Origin: Polytrichum commune
Taxonomy: Eukaryota > Streptophyta > Polytrichopsida > Polytrichales > Polytrichaceae
Direction of reading: 5' to 3'
Length of the DNA stretch: 64,000 nt
NCBI GenBank assembly: GCA_950295325.1
Contig: OX485804.1
Location: 28,704,001 to 28,768,000 of the forward strand
Numbering within the stretch: the stretch's first letter is position 1; each line of letters opens with the position of its first letter. This document shows, in pieces, positions 2,295 through 45,665 of the stretch. The notes under the pieces were generated by a model that worked only from the letters and a program-made list of their open reading frames with translations, ran no database searches and was not told where the DNA came from. A program made the translations under genes and the position numbers.

Positions 2295-3455
2295 TGTGTA
2301 CATCCAAACTACACGCACATCCTATGTGGTGATTTTAACCGAGACATTGCATTCACTGGTAGGCAAAACTATAACAACAATACACCACCACAAGAAAAAG
2401 ATATACGATGGGAAAACTTCACTACAACCCTCAATTTAGAATATATTCCTACGGACACTATCCTCTCTAGACAAGGAGGCTATAATTACACATCAACCAG
2501 CCTTATAGACGGCTTCTATATCAACTCACCAGACAATAGCAGATTCACCTCCATAACAAACACAAACATGAATCTAAACTCAGACCACTACCCAGTCATT
2601 CTACACATACCCCTAAACACACTTATAGTTAGACCCCTACTCCCCACGAATATCATACCAACCATAAAACTAAACCCGATCCCTCCGGAAAACTTAGAAA
2701 AATTTAATATAGAATTTTTTGAAACATACTCCACGCAACTAAACAAACTAACCAAACTACTAGAGGACCACAACCACCTCAACCCTGATCAATGGCAAGA
2801 AACCTGTATAACACTAGACAATATTGTAGAAAAAATCTCTAAAACCATTGAGAAACCTCCAAAGCAGCCCCAATACCATCCCTCACAAATAAAACTGCAC
2901 AGCAAGGTAGCTTCCTGCCACGAAAGCTATCTAAAGAATGGAAAAAACACCTTGAAACATATCACCTTATTAGAAAAAACTATATACATTGTACAAAACA
3001 ACCCACACTGGCAAAATCACCCTATCCTAAATGAAATTCGAAACCACAAAAATGTGCAAATCCCACACCCACCCACAACAGCCACCCCTCCAAATGAATG
3101 GATAGACATCATAGCTGCCATCGCAAAAACCGTTAATAAAGACGCCAGAAAAATCACCACAAAATATACCAAAGACTGTATTCTAAAAGCTGTATCAAAA
3201 TACCGACAAATGTATGAAAAAAACCCCAAAAAAATAAATAGGAAAATCTTCAAACATTCCGAAACTTCCCCCCTAGACTCAATCACGGATAGACAAAACA
3301 ATATCCTAACTAGCCCTGAAGATATTACAAAAGAAATACACATTCAACAATTCATCAGTAACCGCCCAACAGTACCCACATGTTATTATTATAATACTCA
3401 CCCACCATACTGCGCATGTGGTGTTAGGCAATACCCATGGCACGACCTAGAATAA
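2295..3455 (+). pseudogene. AP endonuclease C-terminal part and linker of the retrotransposon
   Basis: An open frame of 386 codons with no start of its own. It begins just after a stop at 2292-2294 and ends at a stop at 3453-3455. Near the start is the ILCGDFNRD signature (GDxN motif of exonuclease-endonuclease-phosphatase enzymes), then SLIDGFYI and SDHYPVILHI (the terminal SDH motif), so the last third of an AP-type endonuclease is present and the catalytic N-terminal part is lost. About 270 residues of Lys/Asn/Pro-rich linker follow, ending in a Cys-containing stretch (CACGVRQYPWHDLE) where a LINE would pass into reverse transcriptase. Base composition is strongly A/C-rich, as in the next frame. 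Confidence 0.7.
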
Positions 3456-6433
3456 TTGTCCTAAACCAATTATTCTGCCACCCTTCCTGTCACCGAGAAT
3501 GTCCACTCCCATGCCCACACCACCATCCTCCACGAACCCTAAAAAATGACTACACAATAATAAACCACAACATCCTTCCTCAACACCCAACCCCCCCTAT
3601 ACACCCCCCGAACCCCCCGGTCCCCCACCTACCCCCACCTCCCAATAATATGCTTAAAAACCCCCGTCAATTCCCCATGCACACAATACTTGACCACAAA
3701 CAACAACAACTCACATATTCTAATGGGATAAAAAGAAAAAACACATCATATCTATGCCAATGGATTACTCCAAATAATAACACATACAACAAATGGCGTA
3801 CCCAAAGATATTTATTCCCCTATTGTGACGCATATACTAGTCGTCACAACACCGAACTACTTACCCAATATTATACGAAAAGACAACACGAACATTTCTC
3901 AAACATCATCAATGCATACTTCTCCATAGAACAACAACGAGATACTAGATACGTTATCCCTGCCACAATTATCCCACTAGCACATATCTCCATTAATGAA
4001 TACAACCCAAAGAGTGACATCGAAACAAATACTAACACTATCCAAACACAATTCGACGTCGCTCACATATATGAAGACAATGGTCGGCACCTCATTACCA
4101 TCCCAAAAACTAGATTACTGTGGTTATGGAAACAATACCATCAAGCTAAAGATACCCCATATAGTCTAGAACCACCTACCCAATCATTTGAAACAAAAAT
4201 CGTGTGGCTATACCAAAGGTATAAATACCGTATTCCAAAGAACGACCCACTTAAACGTGCCCAATATACAATACCAACTCCAATACTAGATTTCCTAATA
4301 ACATCATTCAATATCAACCATTCATACTTCTCATCCCCAGTTACTTGTCCCACACAATTCACCCAATTCCACTCACCATTCTCCAAGGATAGAATATTTG
4401 GATCCCTAGGAAAAGCATTTGACCAAAAATGGAAGGGAATTGGTTACGCCCACCCCCATAACGCAACAAACTTACAACAAGCCATCCATTGGGCCCGTAT
4501 TGCGGCCAAAAACGATCCAAATACAATCACTATACTTATTCCAAAATATATGGATTGGTACCATAATTTTAACCCATACACTGGCCCATTCTTGGACACA
4601 CACATCATTGCCCACTTCGGAGCAGACACCATCATATATGAAGAACCCACAATCCCCCCCGAACTCAATATCACGAGAAAAGAATTATCAACATTACGAA
4701 TATTCTGTATCCACCACCAAAACAATCACATCGGTACCTACAAACAAATGAATCAACTCACCAACATAGCAAATAACCTCCAAATATTACAAATTCACAC
4801 ACAAATTGCACCACCCACCCCCGTAAATACCAACATTAACCCTAGCAAAAAATGGGCTAAATCTAATTATCCAAACACACACGTAAATAATAACACACCT
4901 ATTCCAAAATTCCAAAATTCCCAAACTAACTTACCACTAAAATTCCACCCTCAATTCAACTACTACACATACGGCTCTTTTATGAAACCCAAAGAAATTA
5001 ACCCTGGAGAATGGAGAAGAGAAAGAGCCGGCTATGGAATCTATAGCCCCAAGGGCCTTAACATCTCCAAAAGACTACATGGACACCAAAACATACTACG
5101 AGCAGAAATGATAGCAATACATGAAACAATAACAACCATTAATATACTATATCCAAACCAACCCGCATACATATTTACCGATAGTCTAAACGTATTATAC
5201 TTACTCAACACACAAATTAAACACCCCACACTCCACAATAGCCACCCCGACCAAATTACCCTCGCCACCATGGTACAACTACTTCAAAACCGGACACAAC
5301 CAATCACACTATACAAAGTTGGAGCACATGTCAACATTGACGGCAACGAACAAGCAGACAAATTGGCAAAAGAAAGGCTAGAACTAGAGCACAGAATTGC
5401 CATTCACCCATATGAGCATGCCCATGCCACCCCATACTACTACCAAAAGGATGTTTGGGCCTCAATGACGGACGTTCCTGATAAAGGCCCCGTTAGATTC
5501 CTAGAAAAACAAATTATTAAATACGATAGGGAAAACAACTTGGAAAACATGGCCACACAAACCCCCAACACTTACAAATGGACAGAAAATGCAGATATAG
5601 ATAAAGAACTTTCTAACAAATTATGGGAAAACCCGGAAATCACGGATAAACTAAAATCATGCCTCATCAAATTCCGATCAGGAACCTATATGGGCAATGC
5701 TCGAAAACAACTGTTCTTCGGTAGACAAACATATCCCTCTATTACATGCCCCATTTGCACCTCATACGAACCGGACATGTGGTTACATGTATTACTTACG
5801 TGTAAACAACAACATATACATTCACTCCACGTCAAAAGACACAACAAAGCAGTATGGGAAATTAGGAAACTACTAATCTCATCTGAAAAATCTCGATGTT
5901 ATATTCTCATGAACGCTGGCACCTTCAATAATACACCCCAGGAAAACACCGTTCCCAATTGGCTACTCCCTTGCACATGCGGTACACAAAGATGCCATTG
6001 TAACTCCATATTTAGACCTGACATCTTCTGTGTTAGAGGATTACCATACCAAAATGACCCCCCCACAGACTTGGACCCCAACCTCACCATACAATTTATC
6101 GAATTTACATACTGTAATGATAGATTCTCTCCAGAAACACTCGAAGCAAAAAATAACAAATACAAACCATTAATCGATAGTATTGCTGCTAAAGGATGGA
6201 AAGTTGACCCCCTTATTATAATCACCGCTGGCGCTAGAGCCACTACACACATTCCTTCAATGAAATCACTCGAAAATAAATTTAAAATACCTATGCCTAT
6301 CATTAAAAATACCTTTAAAAACATCAATACTATCGCTATAAAATATGCCATGGCTATCCTCCTACACAAAAGAAGAATAGAAAACCACCAACCACTGCCC
6401 CAAACACTAGACCCCCCTTTGACAAAGCCATGA
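3437..6433 (+). CDS. Retrotransposon polyprotein part: MTase-like, RNase H and restriction-like endonuclease
   Basis: A 998-codon open frame overlapping the end of the previous one in another frame; the ATG at 3437 is probably not a true start. Residues 1-100 are Pro/His/Cys-rich. Residues about 290-440 resemble a DNA adenine-methyltransferase-like domain. Residues 505-650 are RNase H: E557 (RAEMIAIHE), D582 (IFTDSLN) and D641 (GNEQADKLA) are present, but the first catalytic Asp is Tyr at 512 (YTYGS). A CPIC...LHVLLTC knuckle lies near 771-791. Residues 840-960 match a restriction-like endonuclease: CTCGTQRCHC, RPD (D862), E889 and KNNKY (905-909). No reverse transcriptase. Most likely dead, though unusually open for a relic. 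Confidence 0.7.
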   Translation: MARPRIIVLNQLFCHPSCHRECPLPCPHHHPPRTLKNDYTIINHNILPQHPTPPIHPPNPPVPHLPPPPNNMLKNPRQFPMHTILDHKQQQLTYSNGIKRKNTSYLCQWITPNNNTYNKWRTQRYLFPYCDAYTSRHNTELLTQYYTKRQHEHFSNIINAYFSIEQQRDTRYVIPATIIPLAHISINEYNPKSDIETNTNTIQTQFDVAHIYEDNGRHLITIPKTRLLWLWKQYHQAKDTPYSLEPPTQSFETKIVWLYQRYKYRIPKNDPLKRAQYTIPTPILDFLITSFNINHSYFSSPVTCPTQFTQFHSPFSKDRIFGSLGKAFDQKWKGIGYAHPHNATNLQQAIHWARIAAKNDPNTITILIPKYMDWYHNFNPYTGPFLDTHIIAHFGADTIIYEEPTIPPELNITRKELSTLRIFCIHHQNNHIGTYKQMNQLTNIANNLQILQIHTQIAPPTPVNTNINPSKKWAKSNYPNTHVNNNTPIPKFQNSQTNLPLKFHPQFNYYTYGSFMKPKEINPGEWRRERAGYGIYSPKGLNISKRLHGHQNILRAEMIAIHETITTINILYPNQPAYIFTDSLNVLYLLNTQIKHPTLHNSHPDQITLATMVQLLQNRTQPITLYKVGAHVNIDGNEQADKLAKERLELEHRIAIHPYEHAHATPYYYQKDVWASMTDVPDKGPVRFLEKQIIKYDRENNLENMATQTPNTYKWTENADIDKELSNKLWENPEITDKLKSCLIKFRSGTYMGNARKQLFFGRQTYPSITCPICTSYEPDMWLHVLLTCKQQHIHSLHVKRHNKAVWEIRKLLISSEKSRCYILMNAGTFNNTPQENTVPNWLLPCTCGTQRCHCNSIFRPDIFCVRGLPYQNDPPTDLDPNLTIQFIEFTYCNDRFSPETLEAKNNKYKPLIDSIAAKGWKVDPLIIITAGARATTHIPSMKSLENKFKIPMPIIKNTFKNINTIAIKYAMAILLHKRRIENHQPLPQTLDPPLTKP

Positions 6434-6699
6434 AACCTTAACAACTAAGCCACTCCACCCCATCCACTAACAATGCACTAGAGACCTGGTGACCCAAATC
6501 ATACTAACAGTCCCCCCTCCTAATAACTAACCATTTTGGTTCTTGTTACTAGTGACTATAGTGTCTACTCTCGAAAGGGAGGAGTAGATCTTTACCTCCA
6601 TACCTTTGTCCTGTGGGCATTGGATTGGAGGAGGATCGAACAGACACTCCATTCACGTCGGTCTCCTCTGGAGACCGAAGTTTTTCTCTCTCTAACAAT

Positions 6700-9600
6700 G
6701 AGTCCAAGTGAAAACATACAAACAATGATTTTCTAAGTCCAAGTAATACATGGGTTTATAATACGGAGTCATTGTCAAGAAGAAAACATAAGTTAGTTGT
6801 TTATTTTCATGCTCAACTATTGTCACTTTTTTCAATTCCTACTCAAAGCTTCGATTCCAATTTTGATTCCTTAGAAATGGATTCAAAAACAAAAATGTAC
6901 ATCAAGGAGGATAAACATTAGAAATAAGAAATACAAATGTGTTTAAATTGACGATAAAAGGTTGCCACACCATTGTGTCCAAACGGTTGGATTTGTGTTG
7001 TGTAACTTGCAACCTTCTTGAGTTGGACGAGTATGAAACATGTTGAAGATCTTTCTCATGGCATTCTAGTTCTTCCTTTGTAGGTTAGGCCTCCCCGTTG
7101 AACAGGTCATTGTTCTCATCAACTCCTCTCACCTCTTCCTTGGTTGAGATTTGGCGCTCTGCAACACTGAATCGCATTGGCAACAATATAGAAAATTAGG
7201 ACCATGCATTTTATGATCAATGCTTCTTGACATAACAAACTCTACCACTACAATAATTAGGAAATAATTTCAACAATGTAAGTTGATGTGTTTTTTTATA
7301 TTTAATGTGATAACTGCCTCCACTACATGATTAGTTGTGTTGTTAGTGTCGCCCTTGGTGCCTCTCCCAAATTCGTGTGAGGCTCTAACCTAGTAGTCAT
7401 TGCTCCCCTTTGCTTGCCCCCAAGCCCACCTCAGTACGGTAGGCACAACAATGAGAGGTAACCCACATCTCCGTTGTTCATGAGGGGGGGGGGGGGCTTA
7501 TTCACAATTGGTTCTTAGAATAGAGGTCCACATGCACAAGACCTTGCAGGCTCAACCACCCCCACTGAGAGAACATGACGCAAGATCCATCTCAAATAAC
7601 AACCCTTAATGTGAAACCACCTATAATGATTCTCAAAATACCACACATTGTTGTCCAAAAACAACACCATGTGAAGATCCTCCCATGCATTCCACAACCA
7701 CACTTTGCATCCCCTACCATCCAAAGTATTGGCATCCACATAGCTACTGCTTTGAACTCATGCATGCGCCCCCAACTTAGCACATTTGGTTGGCCCCCGT
7801 ACTACAATATTATGGCTCTTGCACCTGACGAATTATACAAATTTTTGAAATCCAACAAATGGTGAGGTAGCCACATCAATTCCATGTGGATTAAAATTAT
7901 ATTATGTTTTTGGTGTGATGAGCGGGTACAACAAGGGGAGTCCATTCAGGTGTAACTCTTGCTCATGGTGGGCTACTAGAATTTTGCCTCAAGGCACTTG
8001 GTCCATGGACCTTGGAGGGCGTTGGAGTGGACATATGAAGTTGAAAAGCTCTTGGTATTGCACAACATTGACAATGTAAGCATTTTATCACCTCGTTATA
8101 CAAGATTTGTAATAGGATTTAATTATTGCATAATGATTAAGTAGTCATGTTTCATGTAAGGGCGGAATTTGGTTGTTTGATTGTAGAAAGGACATATGTG
8201 ATAACTTTGTAGACAATAATTTTGCTTATGCTTCACCTTGGGTTCATGAGGATGGATGACACCATAAGTTTCAAAATGAGCTTGTGGCATGGCATTGCTA
8301 CCTCCCGCTCTATTGTTACCATGCGGGCAAGCATGTCACCCAAAAATGAAGTTGTCACAGGAGAAAATAATAAAATAAAAAATCACACATTTCATGCGAA
8401 ATTCATTCAAACATCTTCCCAGTCCTTGGGACTATGCATGTATTTGTAATATGATGGTCCAGTTTCTTGACTCAAGGATTTTGTAGATTCAGTGGCTCCA
8501 ACAATGTGTTGATAATGTTGTAAACCATGTCTAGTGCCCTCCCATTTTGATGAGAAGCCTTTGTGGGTGTTGACCGCACGGAACTTAAGCCCTCACATGA
8601 TTAATTCATAAGCTAGAGGTTAATTGTTTTCTAAAGAACCCAAAATGACACATTTTATTGCGAGAAAATATTCAATGAACAACTTACATGTATTAAAGCC
8701 TAATGAAGCCAAATAGTTAGATTGCATAGTAACATAAATATCACATATTCATGCCATATTGTTTTGAACATCTTCCCTTCCTTGGGACTATGCGTAAAGT
8801 AATATGAAGAATTGTTACTATCTTACATGAGAATTTTGTTAATTCTTCTTGAAGCGATGCATTGACAATGTTGTAGACCATACTACTGGTTCTAAATTTT
8901 TTGAACCACATTGAAATTAGTCATCGCATATTTACTTCAATTCAACAACTTGGCGTGACTACGTTTTCAAAAGAAAAATCAATGACGCATTTCATTCTAA
9001 GAGAGGTATTCAAATATGAAAGCGTTATGGAATCTTAAAAGACCCCACGTACTCCCTTTAATGATATAAGGTTGACATTTGTGTTCACTCTTCTCCACAA
9101 AGTAGCATACATTTCCTACAAGTACCCCCCTTTGAACCTAGTGACATTTGTCTCTTCATGTATTGTTGATGTTGTATTTCTTGGGCCATTGTTGGCTATA
9201 CCAACATCACAAAACATGACATGTGTTCTCTTGGGGCTCACCATCCTCTTTAGTGAGGTCAAGAATCTCCTCCACTCCACCTCTTGACTTCCCACATCAT
9301 CTTCCCTTGTGCACAAGCCTCACTAGGTTGTCATATAGTAGCCATATAGTAGCCATGTAGTTCAAGGAGCATATCCCATTTGAATTGAACACTTTGAGAT
9401 TTTGTTCCCCATTAGAGCCTTCTTCAATGCTCTACATTGCCAAGTCCTCTTTCTTTGCTCCCTTGCCTTTGTTTGCCAATGACCACATTTTCTACACACT
9501 TTAGAAAATCATTTAAAAGGCTTTAAGCAAGTTACATCCAAGGGTTGGAGTGCATGTAGCCTATGAGAAGGTAATGTAATCTACTCCAATCCAATCTCTT

Positions 9601-9771: not shown

Positions 9772-9947
9772 ATCATAACATTATTCAGATACATAACAAT
9801 GTTATGTGGGAATGACAATATTCCACATAACATTCTCATGTATTCCCCACGTTCATATTGAATATTATGTGGGAAATATATGGGAATATTTTATGGAATA
9901 ATGTTAGTCCCACATAACACTGTTATGGATCTGAATAATGTTATGAT
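9772..9947. mobile_element. MITE-like foldback element with about 65-bp inverted arms
   Basis: The left arm begins ATCATAACATTATTCAGAT and the right end is its exact reverse complement. Arms of about 65 bases match with few mismatches (9772-9840 against 9880-9947), leaving a loop of about 40 bases. CATAACAATGTTATG inside each arm is itself palindromic. There is no coding capacity. Size and structure fit a miniature inverted-repeat transposable element; the end is not the Stowaway or Tourist consensus I know, and no clear target-site duplication is seen. Confidence 0.75.
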
Positions 9948-12656: not shown

Positions 12657-15072
12657 AAGAAGAAGAAGAACTCTGGTCTCCAGAGGGGGCCGGAATGACT
12701 AGAGTGTTTGTTCGTAGAACATCCATAGCCACGCCCCAGGGCAATGGTGTTAAATGTAGAACTACTTCACCCTTTTCAGGGAGTAGACATTATATTAGTA
12801 ACAGATAGCTGGTTAACCGGTAACCAATAGTATGTGGTAGTTTTTTAGTGGGGTTTATCTAGTAAAGTGTCATTCTTTATATGTTGGGGTGTACCAAGCT
12901 GTGAGATGGGTTGTTTGGTTATGCTAGGTCTTGAAGGTCTGAGACAAATTGTTTGTTCTCTAGTCTATGTTTATGGACTAGTATTGAATGTGCATATTGT
13001 GTGGCGATAATGTTAATTTGTTGGAATGTGTTTATTTTTATTTTTATGAGAGGGAGTTTAAGTATTGTTTCTAGGTTTTGCATTCATGGGATGTGTGTAG
13101 TGGCTCTTGCACCTGCGACTAGTACCATTAGTGGGCTACATTCCAACCCCTTGTGATAATGTTATTGATGAGCGGTTGGTATTTTGTGGTTTTTCTATCG
13201 AGGGTTTCTGCTCTAAATTTGTCATTGCAGTATGTAAATTATATGAATTGTATTGTGATTCCGGTTGTAGGGGTTTCTGGTGGGGGGTGGTTATATGGAT
13301 GTCCTATGACGCATAGTATGTCTGGTTTAAACCTGGCGTTGCAGTGGCATCTCTGGGTGCCACATGTGCATGGTAATAGCCATGCTGGCACGGTATTTTC
13401 TTTAGGTCGTTCGTTGTACGTTCCCGCATTCATGAGTGTGTAGTGTCTAGATATTTTATTTGATAAAATTAATTTCCGTATTTCCCATACAACTTTGTTT
13501 TGTCGTTTTGTTATGAGTGTGTGAATGTGTTGTTGTTTGCATTTGAGTAGTACGTGTAACCATGTATCTGCATCTGATGAGTACAGATGGGGCACGTTTT
13601 TGATGGGTAGGCTTCTCTACCAAAAAAGAGTTGCTTACGGGCATGGCCCATGTATTGTCCCGTTTGGAATTTGACTAGACATGTTTTTTGTTTATCCGTG
13701 ATACTTGGGTTTGTCCAAAAATTGTTTGATCATATTTTGTCAATATCTTTGTTTTCGAGCCATTTGTGTAGTTGGTGTGTTTGGTTAGCTATGACTTCTA
13801 GATTATTTTTTTTGTCATATTTGAGGACGTATTTTCCGAGGTGTCTTATAGGGCCTTTGTCTGGTGTTTCTTGCATTGAATGCCACCAGTATTTTTGGAG
13901 GAAGTATGGTGTAGGGTGTGCATGTTCATGTGGCATTGCAATGTCTCTATGATCTAGTTCACATCCTATGTTGGTTAATGTGTCTGCTTGTTCATTACCG
14001 TTTATGTTAGCATGGGCTTTGACTTTACGGAGTGTGGTGATTTGTGTACAAGATTAATGTAGCATTGTGATCATGGATTCAAACATATTTATGTTTGGGT
14101 GGTTATTATGTAGTGTGGGGTGTTTGGTTTGAGTGTTTAATAAGTATAGGACATTGAGGCAGTCCGTGCAGATATGGGCTGGTTCATCACGATATGTGGT
14201 GGTTAGGAGTCGGAGAGTGTGGTGTTTGGCCATCATTTCTGCTCGTAGTATGTTTTGTAGCCATGGTAATCTTACTGCTATTTTTAGATTATTTTTAGAG
14301 TTGTATATACCAAATCATGTTTTTTCGCGCTTCCAATGTCCTTGAGATGTTTCTTTAAGTGGTTTGAATGATCCATCTGTGTAGTAGCAGAATTGTGGTT
14401 GGTATTTGAGGGGTAGGCATCTGTCGATGTTGGTGTTTAATGGAATATTGGGGGTTGGGGTGGTAGGTGGATAAGGGGGGTATGTGAGTTTAGACCATTT
14501 TGTACTGCGGTTTACTGGGATGTCTTGCGGTGTAGGTGGTGCGATTTGGGTAAATATTGCGGGTATTAGCAGGGTGTTAGCACTATTGTACATTTGTTGG
14601 GGGTATTTGTTTGATCCAATGGGTGTGCCTTTATGGTGTACGCATAAAATGTGTATGGTGCTACTTTTTATTCTAGGTTCAATTTTAAGCTCTAGTGGGA
14701 TTGTTGGTTCTTCGTATGTGATGGTGTCAGCTTTGAAGTGTGCGATAACATGTGAGTCTGGAAAAGGTCCCTCATAGGGGTTGAGGTTGTGATACCAGTT
14801 TTGGTATGGTGTTACGAGGATTGTGATTGTGTCTGGGTTGTTTTTGGAAGCAAGACGTGCCCAATGGAGGGCTTGTTGGGCTTCTTTTTCCGTGTGTGGG
14901 TGGGCATATCTGCGTCCTTGCCATTTATACTGGAATGATGTGCCTATTGATCCAAAAATTTTGTCTCGGGGATATGGGGAGTAGAATTGTTTAAGTGTGG
15001 TGGGGCATGTTATTGGTGATGAGAAGTAGGAGTGAGTGATTTGGTATGAGTCTATGAGGTGTTCAAGGATGG
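12657..15072 (-). mobile_element. Dual-endonuclease retrotransposon, copy 2 (5'-truncated, decayed)
   Basis: Minus-strand relative of the 2295-6700 element. The coding part runs from about 15070 (PILEHLID) down to about 12900, then a 3' region ending in (TTC)n at about 12657. Order: methyltransferase-like segment (14950-14650), RNase H with an intact YTDGS near 14370 and KAHANINGNEQAD near 14000, the CPIC knuckle near 13590, CTCGTQRCHC near 13360 and the restriction-like endonuclease near 13200. Several stops and frameshifts break it. It starts in the same domain order as copy 1, so methyltransferase-like plus RNase H is not a local accident. A possible worn target duplication is CAATCATTAA (left) against TAATCAATAA (right). 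Confidence 0.8.
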
Positions 15073-15547
15073 TCTATAATCAATAATAATTATTGAGAAC
15101 GTGTGAAAATATAATGTGTATACACACAAACTTAATCGCTTAGACCTGCAACTGTATTCAAGGTTTATATATGAAAACTAGAACAACACTCTAACAACAA
15201 ACCATCATGCCACATGGACATTGAATACGTTAAGCACTATAATTTGACAAACACCACTTTTAACCATGTTGCCAAACCTCATAAAATACTTCAACACTAA
15301 ATTGAGAGTTATGTAAGTGGGAGCTTTCATGGTTACTTTTTGTAATTGGATACCTAATTTGAAAGGTGTGTGCTTAGATGTGGATGTAAAAACGCACACT
15401 AAAAAAGACATGTGTTTAAAAGAGATCGTGTTTACATGCTCAAAATATGGTACCCATTCAAGGCTTGGCAAAAGTCAACCTATCTCCTATGCATTCTGTG
15501 AGCTCCGGTAATACACATTAATTCATTCCCAATGCATCCTTCCATGA
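15073..15547 (+). repeat. Sequence flanking copy 2, including an R1 repeat member
   Basis: 15073-15300 shows no feature. From about 15300 to 15500 the sequence resembles the R1 family: GGTTACTTTTTGTAATTGGA, a GTGTGTGCTTAGATGTGGAT-like segment, ATGCTCAAA and AAAGTCAACCTAT match 16280-16460 in order. Non-coding. Confidence 0.5.
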
Positions 15548-22959: not shown

Positions 22960-24280
22960 AAATATGTCTAGGGTTTTGTTTTTGGGGGGTGGTAGTGCGA
23001 ATTTTGTTTCCAAGTGTCTTTTGTACAAGATGTGAGTTGTGAAGGAGTTAATGAAGATATTGTGTGGAGTCATTTTTGAAGGGTGTGAATTGTTTGGGAG
23101 GGCAATTTGAGTTCTACAAACATGGTGTCTCTATTATGGAAGTGCATTTTTCCATGTTGTCTAGCAATCATGGGGAAGGACACTCTAGTCTGTTGCAACA
23201 ATTGTAGTCATGAGGGGGCATATTTGTCCATTTTTCACTAAATAGCCATGATAGGGAAACAATCTTGGCAATAGGTGAATTCAATGTATTGAGGTGATAT
23301 GGCTTGGCCCAATTGTGCGGGGGTTGGGGCATGAGTAGGTAGGCCAATGATGTGGAGTATGTTGAGCATAGTAAGTGGGTACATTGGCAAGGAAATGTCA
23401 AAATTAGGCATGTTTGAGGTAATATACATTCTAGGAAAGTGTGGTGTGATGGGGAGGTGGGGTTGGAACTCCCATGGACAAGGCACTTCTATCAGGTAAG
23501 GTGGCTAGTAAGTAAGGTTTCTTTACTTTGTTGGATTGGTTTGTTGTGGGTTCAAGGCAAAGGGCTTTGATGGTGGGATGGTTGTATGACACGAGGGGTG
23601 GGGCCACACGATCATGCGATGGGAGTTAGGCATATAGAGTGGGGAATATACAAATCTAACGTTTTTGGGCCACAAAAGGTGTTTACAACAATTTCCCATA
23701 TTTTGGCCATCTTTGGAATTTAGGGTCTATGATATTTGGGAGGAATTTACGAGGGAATGTTGCCAAAATGAGTTGGATAGGGGGTGGTTGAGATGCTCGT
23801 CGGTGGTCCATTTGGATATGGAAGGGTGAAGACGGATGATATTGTTGCCCATAGCAAGTCATTATGTCAATGGACTGGCTATGAGATCGCCATGTAGGAA
23901 CTGCAGTGACGGGTGGAAAATGTGAATAGGGTTTGTGTTGGTGAGGGCACATGCTTTGACCGACCCTACATTGGCACATTTGTCAGCATCGTTGTTGTCA
24001 TTGATCCTAATGTGGAACAATACTTTAATGAGTTGTAGTAGGTGGGGATGTTTTGAGATGTTATGTAGGATGGTTAGTAGAAGGGGTCATGGTGATGCTG
24101 GTGGGTTGAGGGCAAGTTTCTATAATTTATTTATAGTGAGACCAAGTTGTCGGTGAATATGTAGTTGGGTAGGTGGCATGTAGGTGTGATATGGCTTTGA
24201 AAACGTGATATGCCCACAATATATATCGGCAGCATGAAAGTCATGCATTGATTGAGGTGTTTTAGTAAGGGGAGTAAACT
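22960..24280 (-). pseudogene. Dual-endonuclease retrotransposon, copy 3, C-terminal half
   Basis: Very decayed minus-strand remnant. PQYIEFTYCQDCFP (near 23270) matches the IEFTYCNDRF core of the restriction-like endonuclease. RINDNNDADKCANVG (near 23980) matches the last RNase H motif (NIDGNEQADKLAKE), and YIFTDNL (near 24150) matches its second Asp motif. Homology stops near 24280, upstream of the AEMIAIHE motif, and resumes beyond 26470. Many frame changes. Confidence 0.65.
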
Positions 24281-31114: not shown

Positions 31115-31998
31115 GGAATAAGGGTTTCGGCACCGAAATGCCCATTCCAAAGCTTTCAAGTATGGAATAGTACCGAAATCCGTATTTCATGATTTATTTT
31201 CAAGAAATAGCCATACAAAAAATAAAGGCCACAATTGGAACATATACATTAAATTAGTTAAAAAGAAATTTTAATATTTGAAAGAAAGTTGTGAAATTGG
31301 AATTTTGGTACCAAAATCTCTAATTCATAACATTAATTTAAATAATACACATGAAAAAAATTGAGGACATTCGTTGTAGTGTCAAAATAAATTGGTGAAG
31401 GAAAAAAACGTTTTTTTGAAAAAATGTTATGGAATAGGGGTTTCGATACCGAAATCCGTATTCCACAGCTTTCTTTCATGAATGAACATAGAAAAAAAAT
31501 GAGGACACCAGCTATGGCGTCAACATGATATTATTGAATGAGAAATATATTGTTTGAAGGAAACATATGGAATAGGAGTTTCGGTACCGAAACTCCTATT
31601 CCACAATTTTTTTAGAAGAAATAAGCAACAAAGAAATCGAAGATAGCGGTTGTGTTGTTGACATGAAATTGTTGGATGGGAAATACATTGTCTTGAAGGA
31701 AATGTTTAGATTTAGGGTTTCAGTATCGAAACCCCTATTCCACAATTTTAAAAAATAAAATAAACATAGAAGAAAATGAAATTAGCGTATATGATATGAA
31801 CATAAAATTGGTAAATGATAAGTATATTTTTTAAAAGAAAAATTTGGAATAAGGTTTTTGGTACCGAAACCCCTATTCTACAACTTTCTTTGAAGAAATA
31901 AGGATAGAAGAAAATGAGAACATCGGCTATGACATGAACATAAAAGTGGTAAATAATAAGTGTTTTTTTGAAGAAAAAAAATTTGGAATAGGGGTCTG
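31115..31998. repeat. 138-bp tandem array with a 34-bp palindrome in each unit
   Basis: Palindromes with half-site GGAATAGGGGTTTCGGT and axis GGTACC lie at 31115-31148, about 31293-31326, 31431-31464, 31569-31602, 31708-31741 and 31846-31879, with a half copy at 31985. From 31293 on the spacing is 138-139 bases. The sequence between also repeats (an AAGAAAATGAGRACA-type word, CTATGACATGAACATAAAA and a GGTAAATRATAAGT-type word). The best unit, 31569-31602, is an almost perfect inverted repeat with 17-base arms. Each could form a cruciform. Unit length is satellite-like. Confidence 0.85.
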
Positions 31999-43400: not shown

Positions 43401-45192
43401 GTAAGATTTCTGATGTAAAACATGATTACTATACACCACCAAACAAGGAGGAATTTCTGGCCGCAAAAGGAGCTCAAAACTGAAGTAGCAATTATATCGA
43501 ACAGATTGTAAATTGTTCCCGTGATAAGGAACTCAATTCATAAGGATCAAAGCAACAGACTTTGAAAGTTGAGCACAAGTATCTTTGTCATTACCTTCAT
43601 CGCTTGGACTGTCAGCATTTGCTGCTACTTCCTTCAAAACGGATGTGAAGACTGAAGAAAGCCTTTCTCGCAGATCGCATGAAGACTCACGAGTGACATG
43701 CTTTTCCAATGTGGGCATATCCAAAGGTTCGGATGCTGACTGGAGAGTTGGTGCTTTCCTAGCACGTGCTGGCATACCCCAACTTTTCTGCGATCCACAA
43801 CGTTCTCATCATCAACAGGCTGAGAATCGATATAGTACCGATTTTATTTTGACATATGAGATGTGCACGTAGACATTTCCGTGCTAAGATCCTCCGTCAC
43901 TGAGATCTATGAAGAGGCGCCTGATCTGATACAAGCGGTCCTCTCACACCATTTAAATTGGGGATCATTTAAACAATCACCCATGACAGAAAATGTTACA
44001 TTGGGGCCTGCCATACTACTTTTGAGGATGGACCCAAAATATAGATTTCGCAAATTCCACTCAACACATATCCACCACGCAAAATAACCACTATTGAATA
44101 GAGATGAAAAACACGGGCGCAGAGCTTCTTTCTTTCCTTCTACCTCCCACAAAAGGAGACAGATCTCATGCGAGTGTCACCAAGGTGCAATGAAAACTTT
44201 AAGAAGACAAGTTGCAAGGGTGGCCACAATTAGCAAGGATGGGTGGGTTCTACAGAACACGCTAACGACCAATTGCTGCCCTAGATCCCAGATCATCTAG
44301 TTACGTTTCATATATTTAGAGCTTCTCAACAACATGAAATTCAACTTTCAACGTCATACAAACAAGGAAGATGCTTAAGTTCAGAATATGTGCAATTTGC
44401 AGCAAAATCTGGTGGCATTGCAGTCAAACAAGTTTTAAAAATAGTTAAGTAAATAAAACTCCACAAACGAATTCTTGCGACTACAAGGTCAATAGAAACG
44501 ATCACACCTTGACATTTTCAACATTGAACGACATTGTATGATGACAGTGAGTAAGAGAGAGGTCAGGACTCAAAAATGCAACTCACAATCTGGTCACCCA
44601 TGTCAGAGAAGAAGCCTTTGATCCTGTTCCACGAACCCTTCCTGTGCCGCTTAAATTGTTGCTCCCTGTCCTCCCCAAGGCTGTGATGCTCGCCATCATG
44701 ATGATGGTGATGATGATGCTCATCGTCATGATGCTCATGTTGATGATGATTTTCACTCCTGAACGGCAACCAGCTATGGTGACGTCCGAAGGTGGGATAC
44801 GGCCAGCCAACAACCTTCTCCTCCTCTTTCTCCTTCTCCTCTTCCACATGATGATGATGACGGTGGCCAAAATACCTGGGATGGCCGAACACATTAGGGA
44901 ACCAGGAGGCCAATTTGGCAGCCATTCCACATTTTTTGTGTCCATGTCCATGGCCATCCTTGCTCACCACAAAGGTTTGGAATGGATTGAACGGGTTAAA
45001 CCCCCACCGTAGCTTAGGCTTCTCATCCTCCTCCTCGTGATGATGATTTTCATGATGAACTCGTGCAGGCAACGTCCTATGAATGGCGATGAACTCTTTT
45101 TTGCTCTCCTCCTCTGCTGCCACCGCCACCACGGCCAGAAGTGCGCACACAGCCACAGCCAACACAACCGCGAAGCGCAGCCGCGGAGCCAT
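40499..45192 (-). CDS. Secretory-pathway His-rich N-terminus protein, eight exons, 736 residues, unknown function
   Basis: Exons, in order of reading: 45192-44587, 43787-43595, 43178-43072, 42853-42668, 42436-42295, 42109-41871, 41594-41371 and 41012-40499. Every junction has GT..AG and matching phase, totalling 2211 bases including the stop. Start: a GCCATGG context at MAPRLRF; a Met ten codons upstream is weaker. Residues 1-26 are a classic signal peptide (VVLAVAVCALLAVVAVAA). Residues 35-190 are rich in His, Glu and Asp, with runs of seven His (metal or pH binding is possible). The rest has scattered Cys (VCDTGAMSSCQQEFCD, CKACLRQ, EECNLR), SFHVGRCPP and CNSKKDC, and ends in a Glu/Thr/Val-rich tail. 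I know no family for it. The alternative is that the His-rich first exon is a separate short gene ending at 44563. Confidence 0.7.
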
Positions 45193-45665
45193 GGCGAAAA
45201 ACCTCATTCCTCGCACCCACAAAGACGGCCAAAACCTCCCAGCACAGCCAAAACCGAGCCAATTCTGCCTGCGAGCGGCTCGATGGGAAGCTCCGTGGTT
45301 AAGCTATTCCAAGATGCACAGTAGATGGAGAAATCGTGGAGGAAAACGGGAACAGGGAAGAATTATTGACAAGAGAGATGCGCGTTCTAGAAGGAAGGAA
45401 CAAAGGGAAAGCCCCAGACAGGGGAAGGCAGCAAATGCCACATAGGTAAGCTACAGCATAGAACGCTTCTCGGAAAGGTAGATCTCTCATATCTACGAAA
45501 TAATCATATTCCCGTAGATCTGGGCCCGCGGCTAACTGCATTTCCCACCGGCTGAATCCTCGATCGGACGGTGCAGATCGATTCTAGACGTTCCTTCCCC
45601 GGTCTCCGCCCACCCCCGCCGCACGACGCTCCTTCGGTCGGCTAATAAAGGACGTGTGGTATCCT
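45193..45665 (-). promoter_or_regulatory. Probable promoter and 5' leader of the His-rich gene
   Basis: Sequence immediately upstream of the start codon on the minus strand is noticeably GC-richer (CCGCGG, CGCGGAGCC, GGGCCCGCGG) than the surrounding window, as plant promoter regions often are. AGATCT.TCATATCTACG words near 45480-45520 form a small inverted repeat. No TATA box was identified with confidence. Confidence 0.3.

Follow-up and report, generated by a model that had tools for sequence, protein, structure and literature searches.

Can a retrotransposon that encodes parts of two kinds of endonuclease, and no reverse transcriptase (RT), still be mobilised, or is it a broken copy? The question is raised by a stretch of 64,000 nucleotides from Polytrichum commune (contig OX485804.1, positions 28,704,001 to 28,768,000 of the forward strand), here called the window. 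A preliminary description recognised in it an element with an apurinic/apyrimidinic (AP) type endonuclease and a restriction-like endonuclease, and proposed that this is a land-plant member of the Dualen/RandI clade and perhaps a deletion derivative still mobilised by a full-length relative. Our analysis indicates that the feature is very probably a defunct copy of what was once an autonomous, Dualen/RandI-like retrotransposon without long terminal repeats (non-LTR), which originally possessed both endonucleases.

A broken copy in the window

The element belongs to a high-copy family and extends from about 2297 to 6693 on the forward strand, and its 5' truncation falls inside the AP endonuclease. 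It contains two long frames, of 386 amino acids at 2295-3455 and of 1,001 amino acids at 3428-6433. Relatives elsewhere in the genome are labelled L001, L002 and so on, and residue numbers of L001 refer to its unbroken frame. The parts of the copy, a long interspersed nuclear element (LINE), are as follows:

2297-6693, forward: whole element copy, a 5'-truncated and internally deleted Dualen-like LINE (delimited by blastn to L003-L006; 3' end aligned with relatives)
2297-3452, forward: C-terminal part of an AP-type endonuclease and linker, with GDFN at 2328-2339 and SDHYPV at 2580-2597; aligned with L001 residues 652-1036
3453-3462, forward: 10-nucleotide filler at the RT deletion; junction seen once in the genome
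3463-6433, forward: C-terminal part of the second open reading frame (ORF2), open from behind the RT to the stop; aligned with L001 residues 1640-2625
4169-4549, forward: PCIF1/CAPAM-like domain (PF12237), frame residues 248-374, with FSSPVTC, FGSxG, and AHPHN where PCIF1 has ANPPF
4970-5377, forward: ribonuclease H (RNase H); the Pfam match spans 5015-5377
5747-5803, forward: zinc knuckle C-x2-C-x9-H-x4-C, a motif in the 1,001-residue frame
6014-6163, forward: motifs of a putative restriction-like endonuclease, RPD (6014), E within FIEFTY (6095) and KNNKY (6149)
6660-6693, forward: 3' terminal hairpin GGTCTCC/GGAGACC, read by eye, and simple-repeat tail TTTTTCTCTCTCT

The GDFN, SDHYPV and RPD...E...KxxKY motifs and the Cys knuckle named in the preliminary description are all present in the two frames. 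The RNase H and the PCIF1-like domain of the second frame had escaped it; Pfam detects them as PF00075 (9.9e-12) and PF12237, labelled 'PCIF1_WW' (3.3e-10, 40.3 bits against a cut-off of 31.1). Both halves of the copy match relatives with 76-95% DNA identity over almost their full length, which is above chance. The copy lacks the counterpart of L001 residues 1-651, and of the AP endonuclease it retains just the C-terminal part. The first catalytic Asp of RNase H (residue 515) is also changed, the DGSF of the relatives being replaced by YGSF at 4970. An Rfam scan of the window at the gathering threshold gave no match.

The reverse transcriptase deletion

A search for overlooked RT motifs in the two frames gave none: RVT_1 is absent from the Pfam matches of both (E up to 10). 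In a tblastn comparison L001 residues 652-1036 and 1640-2625 align to the window copy and nothing between them does; the YADD motif of L001, at residue 1302, lies within this unaligned interval (1036-1640). Against L001-L006 the copy aligns up to 3451/3452 and resumes at 3463/3464, and all six relatives hold 1,813-1,816 bp with the RT across this junction. The loss had been placed at 3437-3455, which is close; the exact breakpoints are 3452 and 3463, between which the 10-nucleotide filler replaces the RT-bearing segment. Together with its flanks the filler forms a 10-bp inverted repeat, AGAATAATTG (3449-3458) and CAATTATTCT (3467-3476), and it supplies the stop codon TAA (3453-3455) of the first frame. 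An element with both endonuclease motifs and no RT is thus a fitting description of the window copy, but not of the family, because intact relatives keep the RT.

The deletion appears private to this copy. The region 3241-3640 has 390 candidate DNA matches, of which 40 were scored; a single one of the 40 spans both halves, namely the window copy itself, and a 35-base junction pattern with at most 3 mismatches matches the genome once (control 0). Since the junction was found only once, no RT-less derivative is seen to have spread, and an amplified derivative of this kind was rejected for want of a second junction. A non-autonomous, RT-less derivative mobilised in trans by full-length relatives is nevertheless conceivable, as such relatives exist and the window copy has a normal 3' end. 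We consider it very unlikely, given the single junction copy and the lack of a target duplication that would link the deletion to an insertion event. The filler and its inverted repeat also look like the outcome of repair by end joining; a template switch during reverse transcription could have produced them as well. A search for a target duplication at the window copy gave none, and the deletion may be older or younger than the insertion.

The substitution pattern likewise fails to support a copy that was still mobilised. At codons where the other four copies (L003-L006) agree, the window copy has 28 nonsynonymous and 10 synonymous private changes. Random single changes in the same codons predict 2.7-3.7 nonsynonymous changes per synonymous one without selection, from which the window copy does not depart (p 0.43-1.0); L003 (21:33) and L004 (21:25) both do (p at most 9.1e-5). 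The private changes thus fit neutral decay, and by this evidence the copy is dead. The same test bears on the idea that the 1,001-residue frame, with its PCIF1-like, RNase H and endonuclease parts, has been domesticated and serves the host. A run of 1,001 codons without a stop is suggestive, as L003 and L004 have 3 and 1 stops in the compared part, but L005 and L006 likewise have none there, though with 3 and 1 gapped codons, and in the window frame the first Asp of RNase H is gone. Given private changes in keeping with neutrality, domestication was rejected and strikes us as extremely improbable.

Intact relatives and the architecture of the family

The genome searched comprises 408 Mb in 64 contigs, of which C1-C7 each measure 42-78 Mb. 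Relatives of the second frame were scored for the best 46 of 7,359 first-look candidates and those of the first frame for 107 of 1,476; these counts are rough and include the window copy. L001 and L002 each have a single unbroken frame of 2,625 amino acids; with 99.06% identity over 9.2 kb, they point to recent activity. The L001 frame matches RVT_1 (1.1e-29), PF12237 (3.6e-10) and RNase H (7.3e-13). All three families (RNase H as PF00075) are also found in L007, L008 and L009, so that RVT_1 is present in all four relatives' ORFs scanned; PF12237 and PF00075 exceed their cut-offs in these four and in the window copy. The L009 frame begins downstream of the AP endonuclease domain. By sequence, the closest solved RTs are R2-type chains (69-110 bits), followed by LINE-1 ORF2p chains (58-60 bits). 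Between L001 and L008 the ratio of nonsynonymous to synonymous substitution rates (dN/dS) is 0.04-0.14 across nine regions, and 0.090 in the PCIF1-like one.

The order of parts in ORF2 of the family, as read from sequence, is: 2A-like motif, AP endonuclease, RT, PCIF1-like domain, RNase H, zinc knuckle and restriction-like endonuclease motifs. The intact family also has an upstream frame, as seen in L001, where it encodes 747 amino acids, overlaps the 2,625-residue frame by 22 nucleotides and has a coiled coil near its end, read by eye. The 5' regions of the long copies L029 and L032 contain tandem repeats with 18- and 54-base units.

The 2A-like motif was judged against the 2A (StopGo) consensus D(V/I)ExNPGP, and the part bearing it is absent from the window copy. 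L001 has GDIEPNPGP and L007 GDIETNPGP, each immediately before a Met; GDIKPNPGP of L008 departs from the consensus, which leaves two of three full-length ORFs in agreement and is a point against this part of the architecture. The consensus is given as ending in (V/I)ExNPGP in a source that states that there is no evidence of its natural use by plant viruses (PMC12846837).

The two endonucleases

Relatives lacking one of the endonucleases would have spoken against a dual-endonuclease element, but L001, L007 and L008 have both AP-endonuclease and C-terminal motifs. The AP-endonuclease motifs are conserved in all three of these aligned sequences; the zinc knuckle C-x2-C-x9-H-x4-C and the motif series [R/K]PD ... 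E ... K-x2-KY are kept in five of five.

Profile evidence is less favourable to both assignments. The AP endonuclease remnant in the window matches PF14529 below the cut-off (3.8e-05, 24 bits against 27.4), L007 matches PF03372 only just above it (25.5 bits against 24.5), and neither L001 (E up to 1) nor L008 (E up to 0.1) has a Pfam match to an AP endonuclease family. For the C-terminal endonuclease, sequence and profile searches of the PDB returned no R2-type or other relevant match, and its putative restriction-like nature is assigned by motifs alone.

A PCIF1-like domain

Between the RT and RNase H the family carries a domain of PF12237, the Pfam family of the CAPAM-like methyltransferase rather than of the WW domain (PMC7641849). 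PF12237 is above its cut-off at all 150 places scored (the best 150 of 698 candidates). PCIF1/CAPAM is a methyltransferase that forms m6Am at the cap-adjacent adenosine. As in this enzyme (PDB 6irv, 6irx), the region SPLNC ... FGSxG ... ANPPF can be aligned, and it is this region that the phmmer alignment covers, with AHPHN opposite ANPPF; unlike PCIF1, the element has HP[H/P/Y][N/T/S] for NPPF and embeds the domain in a polyprotein. A profile of 16 element domains (alignment A1), searched against the PDB with E up to 10, matched two solved PCIF1 sequences only. In IMG/VR, neither the L001 ORF nor A1 retrieved a relative.

In PCIF1-type N6-adenine methyltransferases the Asn and Phe of NPPF are catalytic. 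In an alignment of 22 element domains, which are not all independent and from which the broken loci L004, L010, L014, L016 and L017 were excluded, HP[H/P/Y][N/T/S] replaces NPPF in 22 of 22. GYAHP is kept in every one of them, and the SPVTC/SPITC and FG[S/A]xG stretches are strongly conserved. The DNA pattern for KW-x-G-x-GYA[H/N]P occurs at 406 places in the genome (control 0) and its Asn-only version at 1, so that by subtraction 405 of the 406 sites have His at the position of the catalytic Asn; being built from the element context, the pattern would pass over a canonical gene of the host. Loosening the pattern gave 475 places. A GLAHP variant replaces GYAHP among the places listed, for example G000:C1:20109005 and C1:48478436, and may mark a further subfamily. 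No canonical FEANPPF site, which would hint at a host PCIF1 gene, was found in the genome, though one interrupted by an intron or set among other residues would escape this search. Over five pairs the dN/dS of the PCIF1-like region is 0.090-0.193, within the range of the other domains. The domain is thus under purifying selection, to judge from these sequence comparisons, in a form without the catalytic Asn.

What such a domain might do can be explained in more than one way. On the one hand, it could be a methyltransferase that works with the unusual motif HPHN/HPPN and acts on the RNA or DNA of the element; the invariant GYAHP, the conservation of the SPVTC/SPITC and FG[S/A]xG stretches and the purifying selection would all agree with this. 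We regard it as unlikely, as His occupies the Asn position at nearly all motif sites, and N, T or S the Phe position throughout the aligned domains. On the other hand, His stands in place of the catalytic Asn in a domain that is otherwise conserved, and for this reason we tentatively propose, as the likeliest single role, binding to the capped 5' end of the element RNA with no methyl transfer. Two points weigh against the PCIF1 relationship on which cap binding builds: the matches to PCIF1 are weak, both with the A1 profile (E 0.009 and 0.035) and with phmmer (E 0.071 and 0.19), and the single-sequence structure prediction of 3950-4810 had a predicted local distance difference test (pLDDT) score of 34.7 and was not used. 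A wider scenario is speculative and, to us, rather doubtful: a Dualen-like lineage in a land plant would have captured a PCIF1-type domain, which became fixed, with its catalysis altered, as a module for the cap or RNA 5' end that holds or marks the element's capped RNA during retrotransposition, and this module would form, with the 2A-like motif of ORF2, a device for RNA-end recognition, of which the literature matches listed gave no example in LINEs.

3' ends and insertion

The 3' tails of the relatives, read by eye, are (TTC)n, (CT)n or (CTAT)n and not poly(A). Twelve further copies were cut out, and after removal of L054, whose 5' end lay outside the cut, 11 truncated copies were available. 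In 8 of these, strings of 12-14 bp, taken as target duplications, are shared by both ends, just past the tail; the strings of L052 and L060 reach 14 and 9 bases into the element-matching stretch and both cases are less clean. An earlier count with shorter search windows gave 7 of 11, the L052 string reaching only 8. Mismatched pairings, the control, shared no string longer than 11, a length reached once in 110 (final search windows) and likewise once in 132 (first search windows). A fixed target site was rejected, as the 23 3' flanks listed, which are not all independent (L033 repeats the flank of L004), have no common sequence by eye. A few of the target duplications suggest a weak AAT/TG preference at the nick (marked by the stroke).

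Staggered cuts in target-primed reverse transcription, a mechanism established for LINEs, give rise to target duplications. We infer by analogy that the 12-14 bp duplications are its trace here. The AP endonuclease would nick the target, the RT would start on an RNA that ends in the hairpin and short pyrimidine-rich repeats, RNase H would remove the RNA template, and a staggered cut of the second strand would give rise to the duplications. Against this scheme stand three of the 11 truncated copies, the window copy and L002, for which a target duplication was looked for in vain.

Placement among known elements

Elements that combine an AP-type endonuclease with PD-(D/E)xK-type motifs are described as Dualen/RandI (PMC3636483, PMC4640811), and RNase H is reported in this group (PMC4640811); all eight green-algal RandI families of one published table have simple-repeat, non-poly(A) 3' ends (Table 3 of PMC3747384). 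The present family is alike in all three respects, and differs by its apparent land-plant host and by the 2A-like motif. It also has the PCIF1-like domain between RT and RNase H, which algal Dualen elements may or may not share and the novelty of which is uncertain. We call the family Dualen-like on the strength of its architecture and 3' tails, the restriction-like endonuclease being read from motifs. The proposed land-plant membership in Dualen/RandI holds to this extent, that the architecture (AP-type endonuclease, RT, RNase H and C-terminal motifs) is of that kind and the host is apparently a land plant. A plastid-like rbcL on contig C8 has tRNA-Arg(CCG) next to it, an arrangement typical of bryophyte-like plastids, and a land plant is therefore likely. 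To call the clade one of green algae is correct for Chlamydomonas and relatives, in which it has been noted (PMC8226300), but is too narrow, as LINE/Dualen is also reported in cryptophytes (PMC12747079). Among the literature matches listed, which do not establish absence from print, there was neither a PCIF1-like domain in a LINE nor a Dualen element in land plants.

R2 elements have a C-terminal zinc knuckle followed by a PD...E...K arrangement. The family resembles the R2 group in this arrangement and in its closest solved RTs, but differs by its N-terminal AP endonuclease and RNase H and by the lack of a shared target in the 23 3' flanks listed and compared by eye. A CCHC motif and an endonuclease are named for R2 in PMC3636483.

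Other features of the window

A second fragment of the same element class lies downstream, on the opposite strand:

12928-15073, reverse: frame-broken fragment with PCIF1-like (GRRYAHPHT), RNase H and C-terminal endonuclease parts

It is closer to L009 than to L001 or L007, and PF12237 in its frame 14318-15073 scores 26.6 bits, below the cut-off. At 23055-24032 (reverse) the C-terminal part of the element recurs a third time, in very degraded form (28-33% identity, E 1e-4 to 1e-6). A 172-base stretch at 9774-9945 is 74-76% identical to the flank of L003 in both orientations, and is perhaps a small palindromic repeat element. Tandem repeats of a unit of about 138 bases, in which TTTCGGTACCGAAA-like palindromes occur, form an array at 31349-31993. 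A 246-residue open frame at 44563-45303 (reverse) is rich in His and Glu, has a hydrophobic stretch near its start and has no Pfam match (E up to 0.1).

Implications

On its own the window copy is an ordinary broken LINE. Arguments on how AP endonucleases came to take the place of restriction-like ones have drawn on dual-endonuclease LINEs (PMC4640811), and the near-identical copies of what is probably a land-plant lineage provide material for this question. If the PCIF1-derived domain does bind caps, it would give a LINE a route to the 5' end of its own RNA, which would bear on cis-preference.

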